This document shows, piece by piece, positions 34,800-40,352 of a DNA stretch of 43,898 bases (the first letter of the stretch is position 1; every line of letters starts with the position of its first letter). A model generated the notes under the pieces. That model was given only the letters and a program-made list of their open reading frames with translations, had not been told where the DNA came from and did no database searches. The stretch is taken from positions 1-43,898 of the forward strand of contig CACKZT010000007.1 of NCBI GenBank assembly GCA_902604695.1, read 5' to 3'. Made by a program: the position numbers and the translations under genes. The stretch is from an uncultured Pelagibacteraceae bacterium (GTDB lineage: Bacteria > Pseudomonadota > Alphaproteobacteria > Pelagibacterales > Pelagibacteraceae).

Positions 34800-35800
34800 T
34801 AAAATAAAACTGAGATTTGTTTAAAAATTCGTTTTGTAAAGCTTGGAATAAACTCATTATTATTTTTTAAAGAGTACCAATTATATTCGGGAGGTATTTT
34901 ATCTGAAAATTTATAATACAAATTAATATTTAATTTTAAATTTGAGATAGAATTTTGATAATTTTTTAAAAACTTCCAATTTTTATTTTTTAAATTATTC
35001 TTGGTTTCTTTAATTGAGGGCAAATTAAAATTTTTCAAAAAACCAATTTTATTTTTTTTTGTTAATGCTATTTTTTGATTTTTATTTATGTAACAGAAAA
35101 TATCGTAATCTTTGTTTTTTATCATTTTTTTTTTATTTATTTTAATTTTTTTGGAAGATTTTAAATACTTACAACTTTTTTTCAAACAACAAATACTACA
35201 ATTTGGGTTTTTTGGTTTACAAATTAAAGCTCCAAATTCCATTAAAGCTTCAACAAAATCCGAATTTCTATTGGTATTAAATAATTTTTTTTTATTGGAA
35301 ATAATAAATTTTTCAAAATTTATCGTTTCTTCTTTTTTGTTGAGATATCTTGCAAAAACTCTTTTCACATTTCCATCAATTGCTATTGTAGGTTTATTGT
35401 GTACTAAACCTAGTAATGCATTAGCAGTGTATTCTCCAACTCCAGGTAGTGTTTTAATTTCATTTAGTGTAGTAGGCAATTCTGATTTATATTTTTTTAC
35501 TAATATCTTTGAAGAAGCTAATAGATTTCTAGCCCTTCTGTAATAACCTAAGCCCTCCCATAATTTTAAAATTTCCCTTTCTGTAACTTTAGATAATGAA
35601 TTCAAAGTTTTAAATTTTTTTGTAAATTTATTAAAATAAGGAATAACTGTTTTAACTTGAGTTTGTTGCAACATAAATTCACTTAAAAGTCGATAATATA
35701 GCTTTTTAGGTGACTTTTTGCCAACACGCCAAGGTAGTGTTCTTCTATTATTATCGTACCAAGCAAGAATATTTTTTGGTAAATTAGAATTTATATGCAT
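34799..35800 (-). CDS. mutY: A/G-specific adenine DNA glycosylase
   Basis: Removes adenine mispaired with 8-oxoguanine. The 333-residue protein (ATG at 35800) has LAWYDNNRRTLPWR, LSEFMLQQTQVKTVIPYF with the catalytic Glu, the helix-hairpin-helix LPGVGEYTANALL, IDGNVKRVFARY with the catalytic Asp, and a full 4Fe-4S loop C-x6-C-x2-C-x5-C (in CKPKNPNCSICCLKKSC). The C-terminal domain is short and diverged but still shows NWKFL and PPEYNWYSL. A start 14 codons earlier would run into the DUF721 gene. The ATG abuts the ATG of that divergent gene with no base between. Confidence 0.96.
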   Translation of the reverse strand: MHINSNLPKNILAWYDNNRRTLPWRVGKKSPKKLYYRLLSEFMLQQTQVKTVIPYFNKFTKKFKTLNSLSKVTEREILKLWEGLGYYRRARNLLASSKILVKKYKSELPTTLNEIKTLPGVGEYTANALLGLVHNKPTIAIDGNVKRVFARYLNKKEETINFEKFIISNKKKLFNTNRNSDFVEALMEFGALICKPKNPNCSICCLKKSCKYLKSSKKIKINKKKMIKNKDYDIFCYINKNQKIALTKKNKIGFLKNFNLPSIKETKNNLKNKNWKFLKNYQNSISNLKLNINLYYKFSDKIPPEYNWYSLKNNNEFIPSFTKRIFKQISVLF

Positions 35801-36286
35801 AACAAAAAATACAATAATAGTAAAAGCCAGAATTTCATACAAGGCTTAAGACCGCTTTCGAGCTTAATACCCCGCGGTATAAAAAAAATTATAAGAAAAG
35901 GTGGTTATAATTTTACTAGTATTGTTGATAATTGGACAAAAATGGTAGGAAAAGAGATATCAGGATTTTGTTATCCAATTAAAATTAAATCGTCCAGAGA
36001 ATTGAGTAACGGTATACTAACAATTAACGTTTTACACGGAAAAGAGTTAGAAGTTGAATATAAAAAAAATGAAATTAAAGAAAAAATTAATAGTTTTTTT
36101 GGGTATAATTGTATCGGAGAAATAAGATTAAAAATTGTTCAAGAAAAGAAAATGATTATTAAAGAAATAAAACATAAAAGTAAACCGGTAAAGAGAATTG
36201 AACAAAATATAGATCAACTTAAAAATAGTAATTTAAAGAATTCTTTAAATCAGTTGTTAAAAGCATTTAGTGAAAAAAATGATTAA
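35795..36286 (+). CDS. DUF721 (DciA-like) protein
   Basis: A 163-residue protein with a DUF721 domain: LIPRGIKKIIRKGGYNFTSIVDNWTKMVGKEISGFCYPIKIK, then ILTINVLHGKELEVEYKKNEIKEKINSFFGYNCIGEIRLKIV. DUF721 includes DciA, the ancestral loader of the replicative helicase DnaB. The C-terminal tail is charged. No alternative start codon exists between the ATG at 35795 and the domain, so this start is needed. The mutY-DUF721-dsbA-smc order is shared with other alphaproteobacteria. The helicase-loader role is family inference. Confidence 0.85.
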   Translation: MHNKKYNNSKSQNFIQGLRPLSSLIPRGIKKIIRKGGYNFTSIVDNWTKMVGKEISGFCYPIKIKSSRELSNGILTINVLHGKELEVEYKKNEIKEKINSFFGYNCIGEIRLKIVQEKKMIIKEIKHKSKPVKRIEQNIDQLKNSNLKNSLNQLLKAFSEKND

Positions 36287-36869
36287 AAAATTTCTTATCA
36301 TATTTATATTAACTTTATTTTTAAATAATCCCTTATTATCAAACGAAAAGACAAAATTAACACTAGGTAACATTGATGCTAAAGTAACAGTCAAGGTATT
36401 TTCATCTTTAACATGTCCTCACTGTGCTAGCTTTCATAATAAAATATTTCCAGAGTTAAAAAAAGAATATATTGATACTAATAAAGTAAAATTTGAGCAT
36501 CATGGTTTCCCATTAGATCTAGCAGCTTTAAATGCTGAAAAAGTACTTAGATCAGTTACAGAAAAAGAAAAACAATTTGAATTTTTGAAAATAATCTATG
36601 AAAAACAAAATGAATGGGCAGTTGGATCTGATATTAATAAAATTAATGAATATCTAAAAAAGATTGGAACTGATTTTGGATTGAATAAAAAAAGAATAGA
36701 AGACTTTTTAAAAGATGAAAAAATTCAAGATCAGATATTAAATGAAAGAATTGAAGCCCAAAAAAAATATCAAATAAGTTCTACTCCAACAATCTATTTA
36801 AACAAAAAAAAGTATGAAGGGAAACACAATTTTGATCAATTTAAGAAAGCAATTGAAAAATTACTTTAA
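36279..36869 (+). CDS. DsbA-family thiol-disulfide protein
   Basis: Periplasmic thioredoxin-fold protein of 196 residues. A signal peptide (FLIIFILTLFLNNPLLS) is followed by the catalytic C46-PHC49 in SSLTCPHCASFHNKIFPEL, a helical insertion, and the cis-Pro segment SSTPTIYLNKKKYEGKH. It may oxidise or isomerise disulfides of exported proteins. I choose ATG 36279; a GTG at 36270 would add three residues. It overlaps the DUF721 gene by eight bases and precedes smc by three bases. Confidence 0.9.
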   Translation: MIKKFLIIFILTLFLNNPLLSNEKTKLTLGNIDAKVTVKVFSSLTCPHCASFHNKIFPELKKEYIDTNKVKFEHHGFPLDLAALNAEKVLRSVTEKEKQFEFLKIIYEKQNEWAVGSDINKINEYLKKIGTDFGLNKKRIEDFLKDEKIQDQILNERIEAQKKYQISSTPTIYLNKKKYEGKHNFDQFKKAIEKLL

Positions 36870-36872
36870 AAT

Positions 36873-39317
36873 ATGAAATTTAAAAAATTAGAATTAACCG
36901 GCTTTAAATCTTTTTTTGAGAAAACTAACTTTTTAATTGAAGAAGGTCTCACTGGAATAGTTGGTCCAAACGGATGTGGAAAATCAAATATTGTGGAGTC
37001 TCTTAGATGGTGTATGGGTGAAAGCTCTGCTAAAAGTATGAGAGGTTCGGGTATGGAGGATGTAATTTTTTCTGGGACCTCTAATAGACCAGCAAAAAAC
37101 ATTTCCGAAGTATCTATTACAATCGATAATTATGATAAAGATGGTTTTAATCAATATAAAAATATTGACGAAATTATTGTCACTAGAAGAATAGAGAAAG
37201 ATAAAGGTTCGAAATATTTTATTAATGGAAAAGAAGTAAGGGCTAGAGATGCGCAAACTTTTTTTGCAGATTTGTCTACTGGTGCTCACTCACCTTCTCT
37301 AATTAGTCAAGGGAAGATAGGTATGCTTGTTACGTCTAAACCTTCTGAAAGAAGATCTATTTTAGAAGAGGCTGCTGGAATTTCTGGAATTCACAGTAGA
37401 AGACATGAGGCAGAAACAAGACTTAACGCTGCTGAAAATAATCTTAAGAGAGCAGATGAATTAAAAAGACAACAAGAAAAACAATTAGAAAATTTAAAAA
37501 AACAAGCTGAGGAAGCTACGAGATATAAAGAGATTTCAAGAGATATTAGATCTGTTGAAGCAGGTTTATATTTTCTAAAGCTTAGAGAAATTGAAAAGGA
37601 GAAAGTATTAATTAAAGAAAAATTAAGTGAGCAAGACGATGAAATAAGTGCAATAAAAATTGATTTAAATCATAACAATGTTTTGATGGAAGAAGAAAAT
37701 AAAAGGCTGGCACCTTTAAGAGATAAAAAAATAGAAAATTTAGCAAAACTTCAAAAATTAAACTTAGATATGACAAATCTGCAAGAAGAAGAGTCTAGGA
37801 TTAAAAATATACAAATTAAATTACAAAATTCATTAGAAACTTTAAATTCTGACCTAGAAAGAGAAAAAAGTATTTCATTAGATGCCTCTTTTAATGAAAA
37901 AAGGATTTTAGAGGAAAAAAATGAATTGTTAAAAACTGAAAAAGAATTATCGGAATCTGGCTCAAAATCTGAAGAAGATGTAAATAAATCAAAAAGAAAT
38001 CTAGAAGAGCTTCAAGGTCAATTAGATAGTCTTATCAATGAGATTGAAGGCTATGTGGACTCTGAAAGGAAATTAACAAGAGATCTTTTTGAAAAATTGA
38101 AAAAAATAGTCGGTCAAATTACATCCTCCCAAGAACAATATGCATCCATATATGGAAAAAATGAGTCTATAAAAAGTGATTCGATAAAAAGACGTGAAAG
38201 AATAAAAAATATTGATATAGAGCTTGAAAATTGGAAAAATCTAAAAACAAATTCTGATAAAATGATTAGAGAGTTAAATGAAAGAAAGAAAAAAATTAAA
38301 TTAGAAATAGACGAAAATCAAAAAAATCCTGAAAAAATAGCTACAAGTAAAGGTCAAAATATTCAAAATTTAGAAAATACTAAAAAAATTAACGAAGACT
38401 TAGAAAAAGATCTTAATAAAGCTGAAGAAAAATATAATCTAATCAATCAAAATTTAAAAAATATTCAAGAAAAGTTTTCTGTGCTTAGAGAAAATAAAGC
38501 AAGAAATGAAGCAACGGTAGAAGGTATAGATAATAGAAAAAAAGATATTATTTACTCATTAAAAAACGATCTAAAATTATCTGATGAGACTAATTTACTT
38601 TCTGTTTCTGACTTAAACACTTTAGAGATAGAAAACTTACCCAGTATTGAGAAGCAAGAGGAGAAATTAGTAAAAATAAATAAACAAAGAGAGTCTCTAG
38701 GATCTGTAAATTTAAGAGCGGATGAAGAAACGAAAAGGTTTAAAGATGAAATTCAAAAGATGGAAGATGATAGAGCTGATTTATATTCTGCAATAGTAAA
38801 ATTAAAAACTAGTATAGATGAACTTAATCAAAAAGGTAGAGAAAAACTTCTAGATGCTTTTACCAAAGTTAATAGAAAATTTAATGAAGTTTATACAAAA
38901 CTTTTTAGCGGAGGAAGTGCTAAACTAGAACTAGTTAACTCAGACGATCCTTTAGAAGCAGGCTTAGAAATGCTAGTATCCCCTCCAGGGAAAAGATTAC
39001 AATCTATAACTCTTTTGTCAGGTGGAGAACAGGCTTTGACAGCTTTATCATTAATCTTTGCAGTTTTTTTAGTTAATCCATCTCCTATATGTGTTTTGGA
39101 TGAGGTAGATGCGCCGCTTGACGATGCAAATGTTACTCGATTTTGTGCATTGTTAGATGAATTAACAAAAATAACAAAAACTAAATTTATTATTATTTCT
39201 CATCATGCTTTAACAATGTCTAGAATGCATAGACTATATGGGGTAACAATGCCCGAAAAAGGAGTAAGTCAGCTAGTTGCCGTTGACCTTGAAAAGGCTG
39301 AAGAATTAGTAGCCTGA
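36873..39317 (+). CDS. smc: SMC chromosome-segregation ATPase, short and hinge-less
   Basis: ABC-type ATPase of chromosome organisation. The N-terminal head has the start KFKKLELTGFKSFFEKT, Walker A GPNGCGKSN (31-39) and LISQGKIGMLVTSKPSERRSILEEAAGI. From about 165 to 630 it is a long charged coiled coil. The C-terminal head carries LLSGGEQALTALSL (714-727), CVLDEVDAPLDD (740-751) and IIISHHALTM. Bacterial SMC proteins are usually 1,150-1,200 residues with a globular hinge of about 150-180 residues in the middle; this one is 814 and shows no hinge motif in the coil. The reading frame is intact. Both heads look functional. No scpA or scpB is in the window. Confidence 0.93.
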   Translation: MKFKKLELTGFKSFFEKTNFLIEEGLTGIVGPNGCGKSNIVESLRWCMGESSAKSMRGSGMEDVIFSGTSNRPAKNISEVSITIDNYDKDGFNQYKNIDEIIVTRRIEKDKGSKYFINGKEVRARDAQTFFADLSTGAHSPSLISQGKIGMLVTSKPSERRSILEEAAGISGIHSRRHEAETRLNAAENNLKRADELKRQQEKQLENLKKQAEEATRYKEISRDIRSVEAGLYFLKLREIEKEKVLIKEKLSEQDDEISAIKIDLNHNNVLMEEENKRLAPLRDKKIENLAKLQKLNLDMTNLQEEESRIKNIQIKLQNSLETLNSDLEREKSISLDASFNEKRILEEKNELLKTEKELSESGSKSEEDVNKSKRNLEELQGQLDSLINEIEGYVDSERKLTRDLFEKLKKIVGQITSSQEQYASIYGKNESIKSDSIKRRERIKNIDIELENWKNLKTNSDKMIRELNERKKKIKLEIDENQKNPEKIATSKGQNIQNLENTKKINEDLEKDLNKAEEKYNLINQNLKNIQEKFSVLRENKARNEATVEGIDNRKKDIIYSLKNDLKLSDETNLLSVSDLNTLEIENLPSIEKQEEKLVKINKQRESLGSVNLRADEETKRFKDEIQKMEDDRADLYSAIVKLKTSIDELNQKGREKLLDAFTKVNRKFNEVYTKLFSGGSAKLELVNSDDPLEAGLEMLVSPPGKRLQSITLLSGGEQALTALSLIFAVFLVNPSPICVLDEVDAPLDDANVTRFCALLDELTKITKTKFIIISHHALTMSRMHRLYGVTMPEKGVSQLVAVDLEKAEELVA

Positions 39318-39320
39318 TAA

Positions 39321-39605
39321 ATGGAAAATAATAATAATTTTAAAACTCGCCTTAAAATTGCAAAATCTAAAATTAAAGGTGACCCCCTTTCAAATAGTGA
39401 AAAAAAAGGAGCATTTCTTGGATTTGCTTTTAAACTTGGGACAGAACTTGTCGCAGCAGTTGCAGTTGGGACAATAATTGGGTTTATTTTAGATAGTTGG
39501 TTTGATACTAAACCATGGTTAATAATAATATTCTTTTTTTTGGGTTCTGCCGCAGGAATGTTAAACGTTATAAGAGCTGCAAAAAAGATGCAAAAACAGG
39601 AATAA
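39321..39605 (+). CDS. atpI: ATP synthase assembly protein AtpI/AtpZ family
   Basis: A 94-residue membrane protein with two hydrophobic segments (FLGFAFKLGTELVAAVAVGTIIGFIL and WLIIIFFFLGSAAGMLNVI) and the GFxxDSWF turn, typical of AtpI/AtpZ at the head of F0 operons; the family is linked to c-ring assembly and Mg transport. It follows smc by three bases: the smc TGA is immediately followed by an in-frame TAA, then the ATG. First gene of the F0 cluster. Confidence 0.88.
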   Translation: MENNNNFKTRLKIAKSKIKGDPLSNSEKKGAFLGFAFKLGTELVAAVAVGTIIGFILDSWFDTKPWLIIIFFFLGSAAGMLNVIRAAKKMQKQE

Positions 39606-39617
39606 ACAATTTTTTAT

Positions 39618-40352
39618 ATGGCTACAAATCCAATGCAACAGTTTAGCGTCCATAGAATAGGACCAGAAGTTAAGATAGCTGGTGTAGATATTTCTTTTAC
39701 TAACGCGAGCTTATTTATGTTGATTAGCGCTAGCATTATTTGCCTTTTTTTATTTTTAGGAACTAAAGAAAAAAAAATGATACCAAATAAAATTCAGCTT
39801 ATAGCTGAATTATTTTATAATTTTGTTGCAAAAATGATTAGTGATACTGCTGGATCGAAGGCAAAACCTTATTTTCCTTTTATTTTTTCTTTATTCATGT
39901 TTGTGCTCTTTTGCAATATGGTCGGGATGCTACCCTACTCTTTCACTGTTACCAGCCATATTATTGTTACATTAATTTTAGCAATTTTTATATTTATTGC
40001 TGTAACAATTATTGGCTTTATAAAACACGGTTTTGGTTATTTAAAACTATTTGTACCAAGTGGCGTACCAAATTTACTTTTGCCATTAATAACAATAATA
40101 GAAATTATTTCCTATTTAAGTAGACCGGTAAGTTTATCTGTTCGTCTGTTCGCTAATATGATGGCTGGACATACTATGTTAAAAGTTTTTGGAGGTTTTG
40201 TTATAAGTTTAGGATTACTTGGTGGTTGGTTACCGCTTGGTTTTTCAGTAGCATTAACCGGCTTAGAAATATTAGTTGCATTTCTTCAAGCCTATGTTTT
40301 TGCAATATTAACCTGCATTTATTTAAATGATGCATTAAATTTACACCATTAA
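39618..40352 (+). CDS. atpB: ATP synthase F0 subunit a
   Basis: Proton-channel subunit of F0, 244 residues, five or six membrane helices. The essential Arg is R176 in PVSLSVRLFANMMAGH. Also visible are PYFPFIFSLFMFVLFCNMVGMLPYSF and the C-terminal GLEILVAFLQAYVFAILTCIYLNDAL. Placed after atpI and before atpE in the usual alphaproteobacterial order. Confidence 0.97.
   Translation: MATNPMQQFSVHRIGPEVKIAGVDISFTNASLFMLISASIICLFLFLGTKEKKMIPNKIQLIAELFYNFVAKMISDTAGSKAKPYFPFIFSLFMFVLFCNMVGMLPYSFTVTSHIIVTLILAIFIFIAVTIIGFIKHGFGYLKLFVPSGVPNLLLPLITIIEIISYLSRPVSLSVRLFANMMAGHTMLKVFGGFVISLGLLGGWLPLGFSVALTGLEILVAFLQAYVFAILTCIYLNDALNLHH

Follow-up and report, generated by a model that had tools for sequence, protein, structure and literature searches.

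The window, a stretch of 43,898 nucleotides from an uncultured Pelagibacteraceae bacterium, carries an smc gene that opens with ATG and runs for 814 residues without an internal stop, while the opposite strand of the same interval holds many stops (Table 1). Pfam at E≤10 places SMC_N over residues 4-799 of the product, and the NCBIfam equivalog model TIGR02168, matching over two stretches, gives it 680.8 bits where the cut-off is 567.35. The closest solved structures are SMC heads, which match both ends of the protein. The motifs GPNGCGKS (31-38), LLSGGEQ (714-720) and DEVDAPLDD (743-751), which we take to be Walker A, the signature and Walker B, respectively, are intact here and invariant across a 36-row alignment. 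A reading made from the sequence alone had described two intact heads separated by about 465 residues of charged coiled coil with no globular hinge. The half-head motifs and the TIGR02168 score confirm the two heads, the distance from EEAAG in the N-head to GSVNL (440 residues) is close to the figure given, and on the coiled coil both the profile searches and the predicted structure agree. The locus thus encodes an intact chromosomal SMC with both half-heads and without a hinge. By the features that mark a bacterial SMC, the TIGR02168 score, the split half-head motifs, a long antiparallel intramolecular coiled coil and encoded ScpA and ScpB were found, and the central globular hinge dimerisation domain is missing. 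The hinge is regarded as the dimerisation module of SMC proteins, and several models also make it a DNA gate or a DNA-binding site.

Table 1. Genes around smc and parts of the SMC protein, in window coordinates.
Feature	Coordinates	Strand	Basis or remark
dciA (DUF721)	35795..36286	+	Pfam DciA; neighbour in Pelagibacterales and part of the class
DsbA-like thioredoxin gene	36270..36869	+	Pfam Thioredoxin_4 / DSBA; conserved upstream neighbour of smc
smc, hinge-less SMC ATPase, 814 aa	36873..39317	+	Equivalog score over cut-off
N-terminal half-head, residues 1-169	36873..37379	+	Walker A at 36963-36986, invariant GPNGCGKS
N-terminal arm helix, residues 171-396	37383..38060	+	AF2 model
Apex turn, residues 397-402, expected hinge site	38061..38078	+	AF2; no hinge HMM match
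C-terminal arm, residues 403-607	38079..38693	+	W454-GxVNL spacing near canonical 153 residues
Conserved sub-apical C-helix, residues 421-465, candidate arm-arm contact	38133..38267	+	Conservation windows
C-terminal half-head, residues 611-814	38703..39314	+	LSGGE at 39015-39029, Walker B region at 39087-39122
AtpI-like gene	39321..39605	+	Pfam ATPase_gene1; downstream neighbour of smc
atpB, F0 subunit a	39618..40352	+	Pfam ATP-synt_A

Neighbours were counted at loci with enough flanking sequence, in Pelagibacterales, in the class and in two further alphaproteobacterial orders, named here after the genomes G085 (probably HIMB59, we presume) and G078. The dsbA gene stands beside smc in 103/103 Pelagibacterales, 39/40 class, 6/6 G085-order and 5/5 G078-order loci, and atpI does so in 98/98, 28/42, 20/20 and 4/4, respectively. 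Near smc, atpB was found in 74/74, 23/31, 20/20 and 1/1 loci, and dciA in 100/101, 14/31, 5/6 and 5/5, in the same order. The partners of the complex are retained as well. The earlier suggestion to look for scpA and scpB led to both genes in the window's genome, where ScpA (G000:C1:189454-190104) and ScpB (G000:C1:188905-189366) adjoin each other on another contig than smc. Across 58 Pelagibacterales genomes, ScpA and ScpB each exceed the cut-off in 52 and ParB in 55.

Searches for a hinge and the predicted apex

No Pfam match to SMC_hinge was obtained in the 814-aa protein, even at E≤10, and PF06470 has 0 matches at that threshold in the whole of the window's genome (78.6% complete). PF06470 matches in 12/14 control genomes, among them Caulobacter, and exceeds its cut-off in 10/14, and across the class it is over cut-off in 57/123 genomes, with matches at E≤1 in 84/123. 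It is over cut-off in 0/58 Pelagibacterales genomes; four of these have weak matches (E≤1), which lie apart from smc in frames of 99-477 aa. PF06470 also misses G085 at E≤1, despite a hinge in the G085 SMC that is obvious by eye; because the Pfam model alone is therefore no proof, a class-specific hinge HMM was built from 53 class-level hinged alphaproteobacterial SMCs, some of which are the same gene fetched twice. The training sequences score 99.7-186.4 bits, and all 25 sequences of the G085 order, which lie outside the training set, score 78.8-122.3 bits. Among 128 distinct Pelagibacterales SMCs only 35 align at all, with a maximum of 2.3 bits, and 35 of 128 reversed decoys align, with a maximum of -0.6 bits. 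The HMM has no match in the 814-aa SMC or in five G078-order sequences. When a profile made from a 30-row hinge alignment was run over the 58 Pelagibacterales genomes, one weak partial match was returned, in a 216-aa ORF (E 0.009, 15.7 bits) judged by eye to resemble a secreted protein. The diverged hinge that the sequence-only reading had allowed for around residues 380-480 was thus found neither by profile nor in the structure model.

Two other candidates were rejected. A string seen by eye in the tip of a sister family (V-E-G-Y-D..W) resembles a hinge remnant, but no Pelagibacterales sequence exceeds 2.3 bits with the hinge HMM. A zinc hook is not indicated either, as CxxC is absent from the 814-aa SMC and from 110 Pelagibacterales sequences, of which two are truncated at one end.

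Structure models were made of monomers only. In the AF2 model of the 814-aa protein (36 rows) one helix spans 171-396 and, after a turn at 397-402, two more span 403-483 and 485-566, with block pLDDT values of 76-92 across residues 381-490. The arms are modelled well and the heads poorly (overall pLDDT 71.3, pTM 0.33). The model shows a long antiparallel coiled coil that is predicted to close in a plain helical turn at residues 397-402; the apex is thus a plain coil hairpin in the monomer model, as the sequence-only reading had offered among its alternatives. The tip of L047, a longer relative, was modelled as a fragment (18 rows, mean pLDDT 91.3) and is predicted to form an outgoing helix, a two-helix hairpin and a returning helix. 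Neither the model of the 814-aa SMC nor that of the L047 tip contains an alpha/beta hinge. Foldseek with the whole model, a query in which the heads are of low confidence, gave 83 matches at E≤0.001, and the best 50 of these 83 are SMC, MukB, Rad50 and Wadjet proteins. With only the C-arm as query, a sequence search of the PDB found nothing (best E 0.13).

Distribution, arm lengths and descent

An SMC was found in 57 of the 58 Pelagibacterales genomes, in frames of 799-891 aa where these are uncut by contig ends, and no second SMC locus was found in any of the 58. The 128 distinct sequences (798-881 aa) share the same hinge-less architecture; it is order-wide and recurs in many assemblies, so that the assembly frameshift or deletion that might have mimicked it is contradicted, and the distinct SMC architecture proposed earlier proves common to Pelagibacterales as far as sampled. 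Lengths fall into steps of about 798, 812-814, 848-864 and 880 aa, and the differences sit at the tip. When tips were compared (residues 371-420 with L042, L047, L070 and L100), the types of 798, 812-814 and 857-861 aa were seen to differ by a helical insert of ~45-60 residues.

The class survey detected SMC at E≤1e-20 in 87/123 genomes, most of the frames measuring ~1100-1200 aa; frames below 900 aa with both ends occur in G000, G001, G078 (820 aa) and G085 (869 aa). At that threshold the other 36 of the 123 genomes lack an SMC match, and among the 20 of these that were listed, 14 are genomes of 1-2 Mb. The G085 order has an SMC in 39/40 genomes, in frames of 869-882 aa (L193, L231-L255). In the G078 order it was found in 5/6 small, incomplete genomes, in frames of 806-820 aa, and the SMC sequences themselves (L192, L221-L230) are 803-817 aa long. 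The G078 order is a second small-genome alphaproteobacterial order with an SMC that lacks a detectable hinge.

What was cut out can be read from the arms. In hinged class SMCs the distance from head motif to hinge is ~327 residues in the N-arm and ~310 in the C-arm (medians of 46 sequences), and in the G085 order 198 and 172 residues (25 sequences). In Pelagibacterales the whole span between the head motifs is 424-509 residues, with a median of 439 (124 sequences; 4 Pelagibacterales and 7 class sequences without both motifs are omitted). In 72/128 Pelagibacterales and 32/52 class sequences, all of which align gap-free, the spacing from a C-arm tryptophan (W454 here) to GxVNL is exactly 153 residues; in the remaining 56 Pelagibacterales it is 152-162. 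The proximal C-arm is retained, close to the canonical register. The end of the hinge is mostly 157 residues upstream of this tryptophan in the class (37 sequences) and 15-22 residues upstream in the G085 order. The N-arm varies more: P281 stands at a fixed offset from EEAAG in 124/124 Pelagibacterales, versus 20/47 class sequences. By these measurements the G085 order is without the hinge-proximal arm but still hinged, and Pelagibacterales lack both and have a hairpin instead. The best explanation is that the hinge and the hinge-proximal part of both arms were lost on the line to Pelagibacterales, and that a short helical hairpin now forms the apex.

An unrooted tree of heads and neck (70 rows, sequences of the class only and none from Actinobacteria) places the Pelagibacterales SMCs in one group (100/97), nested among alphaproteobacterial SMCs. 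Nearest to them is L194 of G100 (84/96, not starred), from a 1.4 Mb genome; its 1100-aa SMC is hinged, at 147.6 bits with the hinge HMM, of which it is a training sequence. The tree sets the G078-order SMCs apart from Pelagibacterales, on a long branch with odd amino-acid composition and with a bootstrap that did not converge. By AU tests, neither a grouping of Pelagibacterales with the G078 order (p 0.42) nor one with the G085 order (p 0.276) is rejected, and one hinge loss or several are therefore both compatible with the data. Taken together, the 814-aa protein is best explained as an ordinary, vertically inherited SMC of SMC-ScpAB. The sequence-only reading had ascribed the architecture to genome streamlining. 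Hinge loss is not an inevitable result of a small genome, since G100 (1.4 Mb) and the G085 order (1.1-1.6 Mb) are hinged, and small genome size alone is no explanation; an association may nevertheless exist, the small-genome G078 order being hinge-less too.

How two subunits may pair

In the absence of a hinge, pairing must occur in some other way. The head motifs, the kleisin, the kite and the loader are all kept, and the simplest reading is that an ATP-driven, ParB-loaded SMC-ScpAB machine would still be operating. We tentatively prefer, with some doubt, a working SMC-ScpAB in which two subunits would pair through lateral contacts of their retained arms, held also by the heads and the kleisin. 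A main contact would be the C-helix at 421-465, ATP-engaged heads and ScpA bridging neck and head would help to hold the SMC pair, and the variable apex hairpin would contribute little or only a weak contact. Less certain than the ATP-driven cycle, this arrangement draws on sequence conservation and on analogy with Bacillus subtilis.

The conservation value of segment 421-465 is reached by 5/149 C-arm windows (itself included) in Pelagibacterales and by 132/149 in hinged class SMCs, a contrast drawn from ungapped-register sequences only (72/128 Pelagibacterales and 32/52 class; 40 and 26 after redundancy removal). The N-helix segment opposite, 331-360, is unexceptional, with 87/171 windows as high in Pelagibacterales and 151/171 in the class. 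The arms of B. subtilis Smc lie side by side, seven contact regions are said to help hinge-less Smc dimerise, and a fragment of the middle arm that lacks the hinge crystallised as a side-by-side dimer (PMC5526789). Mapping through the offset of the signature motif suggests that the retained arm may cover this fragment. Together, the conservation of 421-465, the drift of the apex and the arm contacts in B. subtilis favour arm pairing over a dimerising tip or an open, head-joined clamp. As a counterpoint, hinge dimerisation in B. subtilis helps to keep the heads from engaging, and head-proximal cross-linking falls when an ATP-hydrolysis mutation is paired with a hinge deficient in dimerisation (PMC5526789). 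The conservation of 421-465 could instead reflect a contact with DNA or ScpA.

The apex hairpins might also dimerise with each other as a four-helix bundle, closing the ring at the tip and replacing the hinge, and this we consider unlikely, though worth serious attention. Hydrophobic positions at the apex persist despite the sequence drift (in the 812-814-aa type 384, 387, 388, 391, 394 and 395 on one side and 401, 406, 409, 412, 413 and 416 on the other), but the hydrophobic content of the apex is ordinary among arm windows: 96/370 windows are as hydrophobic as the apex in the 812-814 type and 212/385 in the 798-800 type, and 313/325 and 185/325 are as hydrophobic as the tip in the 857-861 and sister-family types. 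Tip hydrophobicity as a sign of an apex dimer was dropped as not significant by these counts. The tip of the 857-861-aa type is predicted as four helices (fragment residues 2-68, 71-93, 97-120 and 123-198; mean pLDDT 91.3), yet no solved structure matches this long tip at E≤0.001, the best being an Smc5/6 arm region at E 0.013. Conservation points the same way. The lowest 10-residue block is 391-400, at 0.43, within an apex (371-420) at 0.43-0.53, which argues against a precise tip interface, although mid-arm 261-270 is nearly as poor at 0.49; apex length, moreover, differs by ~60 residues among relatives. Hinge and zinc hook are interchangeable in engineered proteins (PMC5344682, PMC6969161), but the CxxC of a hook is missing from the 110 sequences and the 814-aa SMC alike.

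Rather improbable is an open clamp, in which ATP-engaged heads and ScpA alone would join two SMCs into a V-shape that closes only during the ATP cycle. The half-heads, ScpA, ScpB and ParB needed for a head-plus-kleisin bridge are kept, and the drift of the apex would fit a free tip; the C-arm register and the constrained sub-apical segment, however, suggest that the distal arm still has a role. That a separate protein supplies a hinge or joins the tips in trans is very unlikely: such a partner would let the ring close and could be unrelated to SMC hinges, but the SMC-hinge profile search revealed no convincing separate hinge protein in the 58 Pelagibacterales genomes, its one weak partial match being the secreted-looking 216-aa ORF, PF06470 is over cut-off in none of them and no second SMC locus was found there. 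An artefact, or a hinge diverged beyond detection, is hardly credible, for although PF06470 does miss one real hinge (G085), the custom HMM separates hinged from Pelagibacterales SMCs cleanly, a like architecture recurs in 128 distinct sequences, and AF2 residues 171-566 are helical bar short breaks, leaving no room for an alpha/beta domain of 120-140 residues.

Relation to known SMC systems

The Pelagibacterales protein resembles the canonical SMC (TIGR02168; Caulobacter or Bacillus type) in its half-heads, GxVNL, C-arm register, ScpA/ScpB/ParB and neighbours, and differs in having a short hairpin in place of the hinge and the hinge-proximal arms, and 798-881 aa versus about 1150. With Rad50/SbcC it shares an ABC head, an antiparallel coil and the lack of an SMC hinge; unlike these, it has no CxxC, and it scores 28.9 and 28.2 bits against cut-offs of 1087 and 1000. 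The G085-order SMC is similar in its shortened arms, small genome and common neighbour genes but is hinged in 25/25 sequences tested (39 genomes with SMC). A closer parallel is a marine actinobacterial clade in which hinge-less SMCs without CxxC were described in 2025 with AlphaFold models (PMC12153180). Both are marine, lack hinge and CxxC, and are known from sequence and AlphaFold only. The actinobacterial clade, however, branches within Actinobacteria, with its source lineage left open (PMC12153180), whereas, compared by description, the present SMC is that of an order within Alphaproteobacteria, in which smc keeps its usual neighbours and scpA, scpB and parB are encoded. The terms 'sar11' and 'pelagibacter' have 0 occurrences in the main text of PMC12153180, and none of the matches listed from the open-licence full-text literature describes an SMC without a hinge in SAR11/Pelagibacterales. 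As hinge-less SMCs were already described in marine Actinobacteria, Pelagibacterales represent a new, order-wide instance in Alphaproteobacteria; as far as we could find, a major order whose sole SMC is hinge-less and whose complex is retained in full is new.

Engineered proteins offer a frame for these observations. Prokaryotic Smc arm lengths have modes at 238, 341 and 515 residues, functional short-armed constructs are reported, and Smc works with its hinge swapped for a Rad50 zinc hook (PMC5344682). Conversely, an SMC hinge can stand in for the Rad50 hook, and both have been argued to be dimerisation modules (PMC6969161). It is conceivable, though on balance doubtful, that a hinge-less, arm-paired SMC-ScpAB organises the chromosome throughout an order of dominant ocean bacteria, and that loading and translocation need the heads, the joint, the middle arm and the kleisin but not a hinge gate or DNA-binding surface.

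A natural, order-wide hinge-less SMC that retains its partners shows what evolution can dispense with, and at 814 aa, with arms of about 210-230 residues, it is a compact protein for structural and single-molecule work. Short arms with a hinge (G085), short arms without a hinge (G078, Pelagibacterales) and full arms with a hinge (most SMC-bearing class genomes sampled) form a natural comparison set, which makes the purpose of the hinge testable by comparison and by chimeras. Three single class members, L195, L196 and L197 (1517, 1417 and 1342 aa), have oversized SMCs with longer arms and the hinge present.
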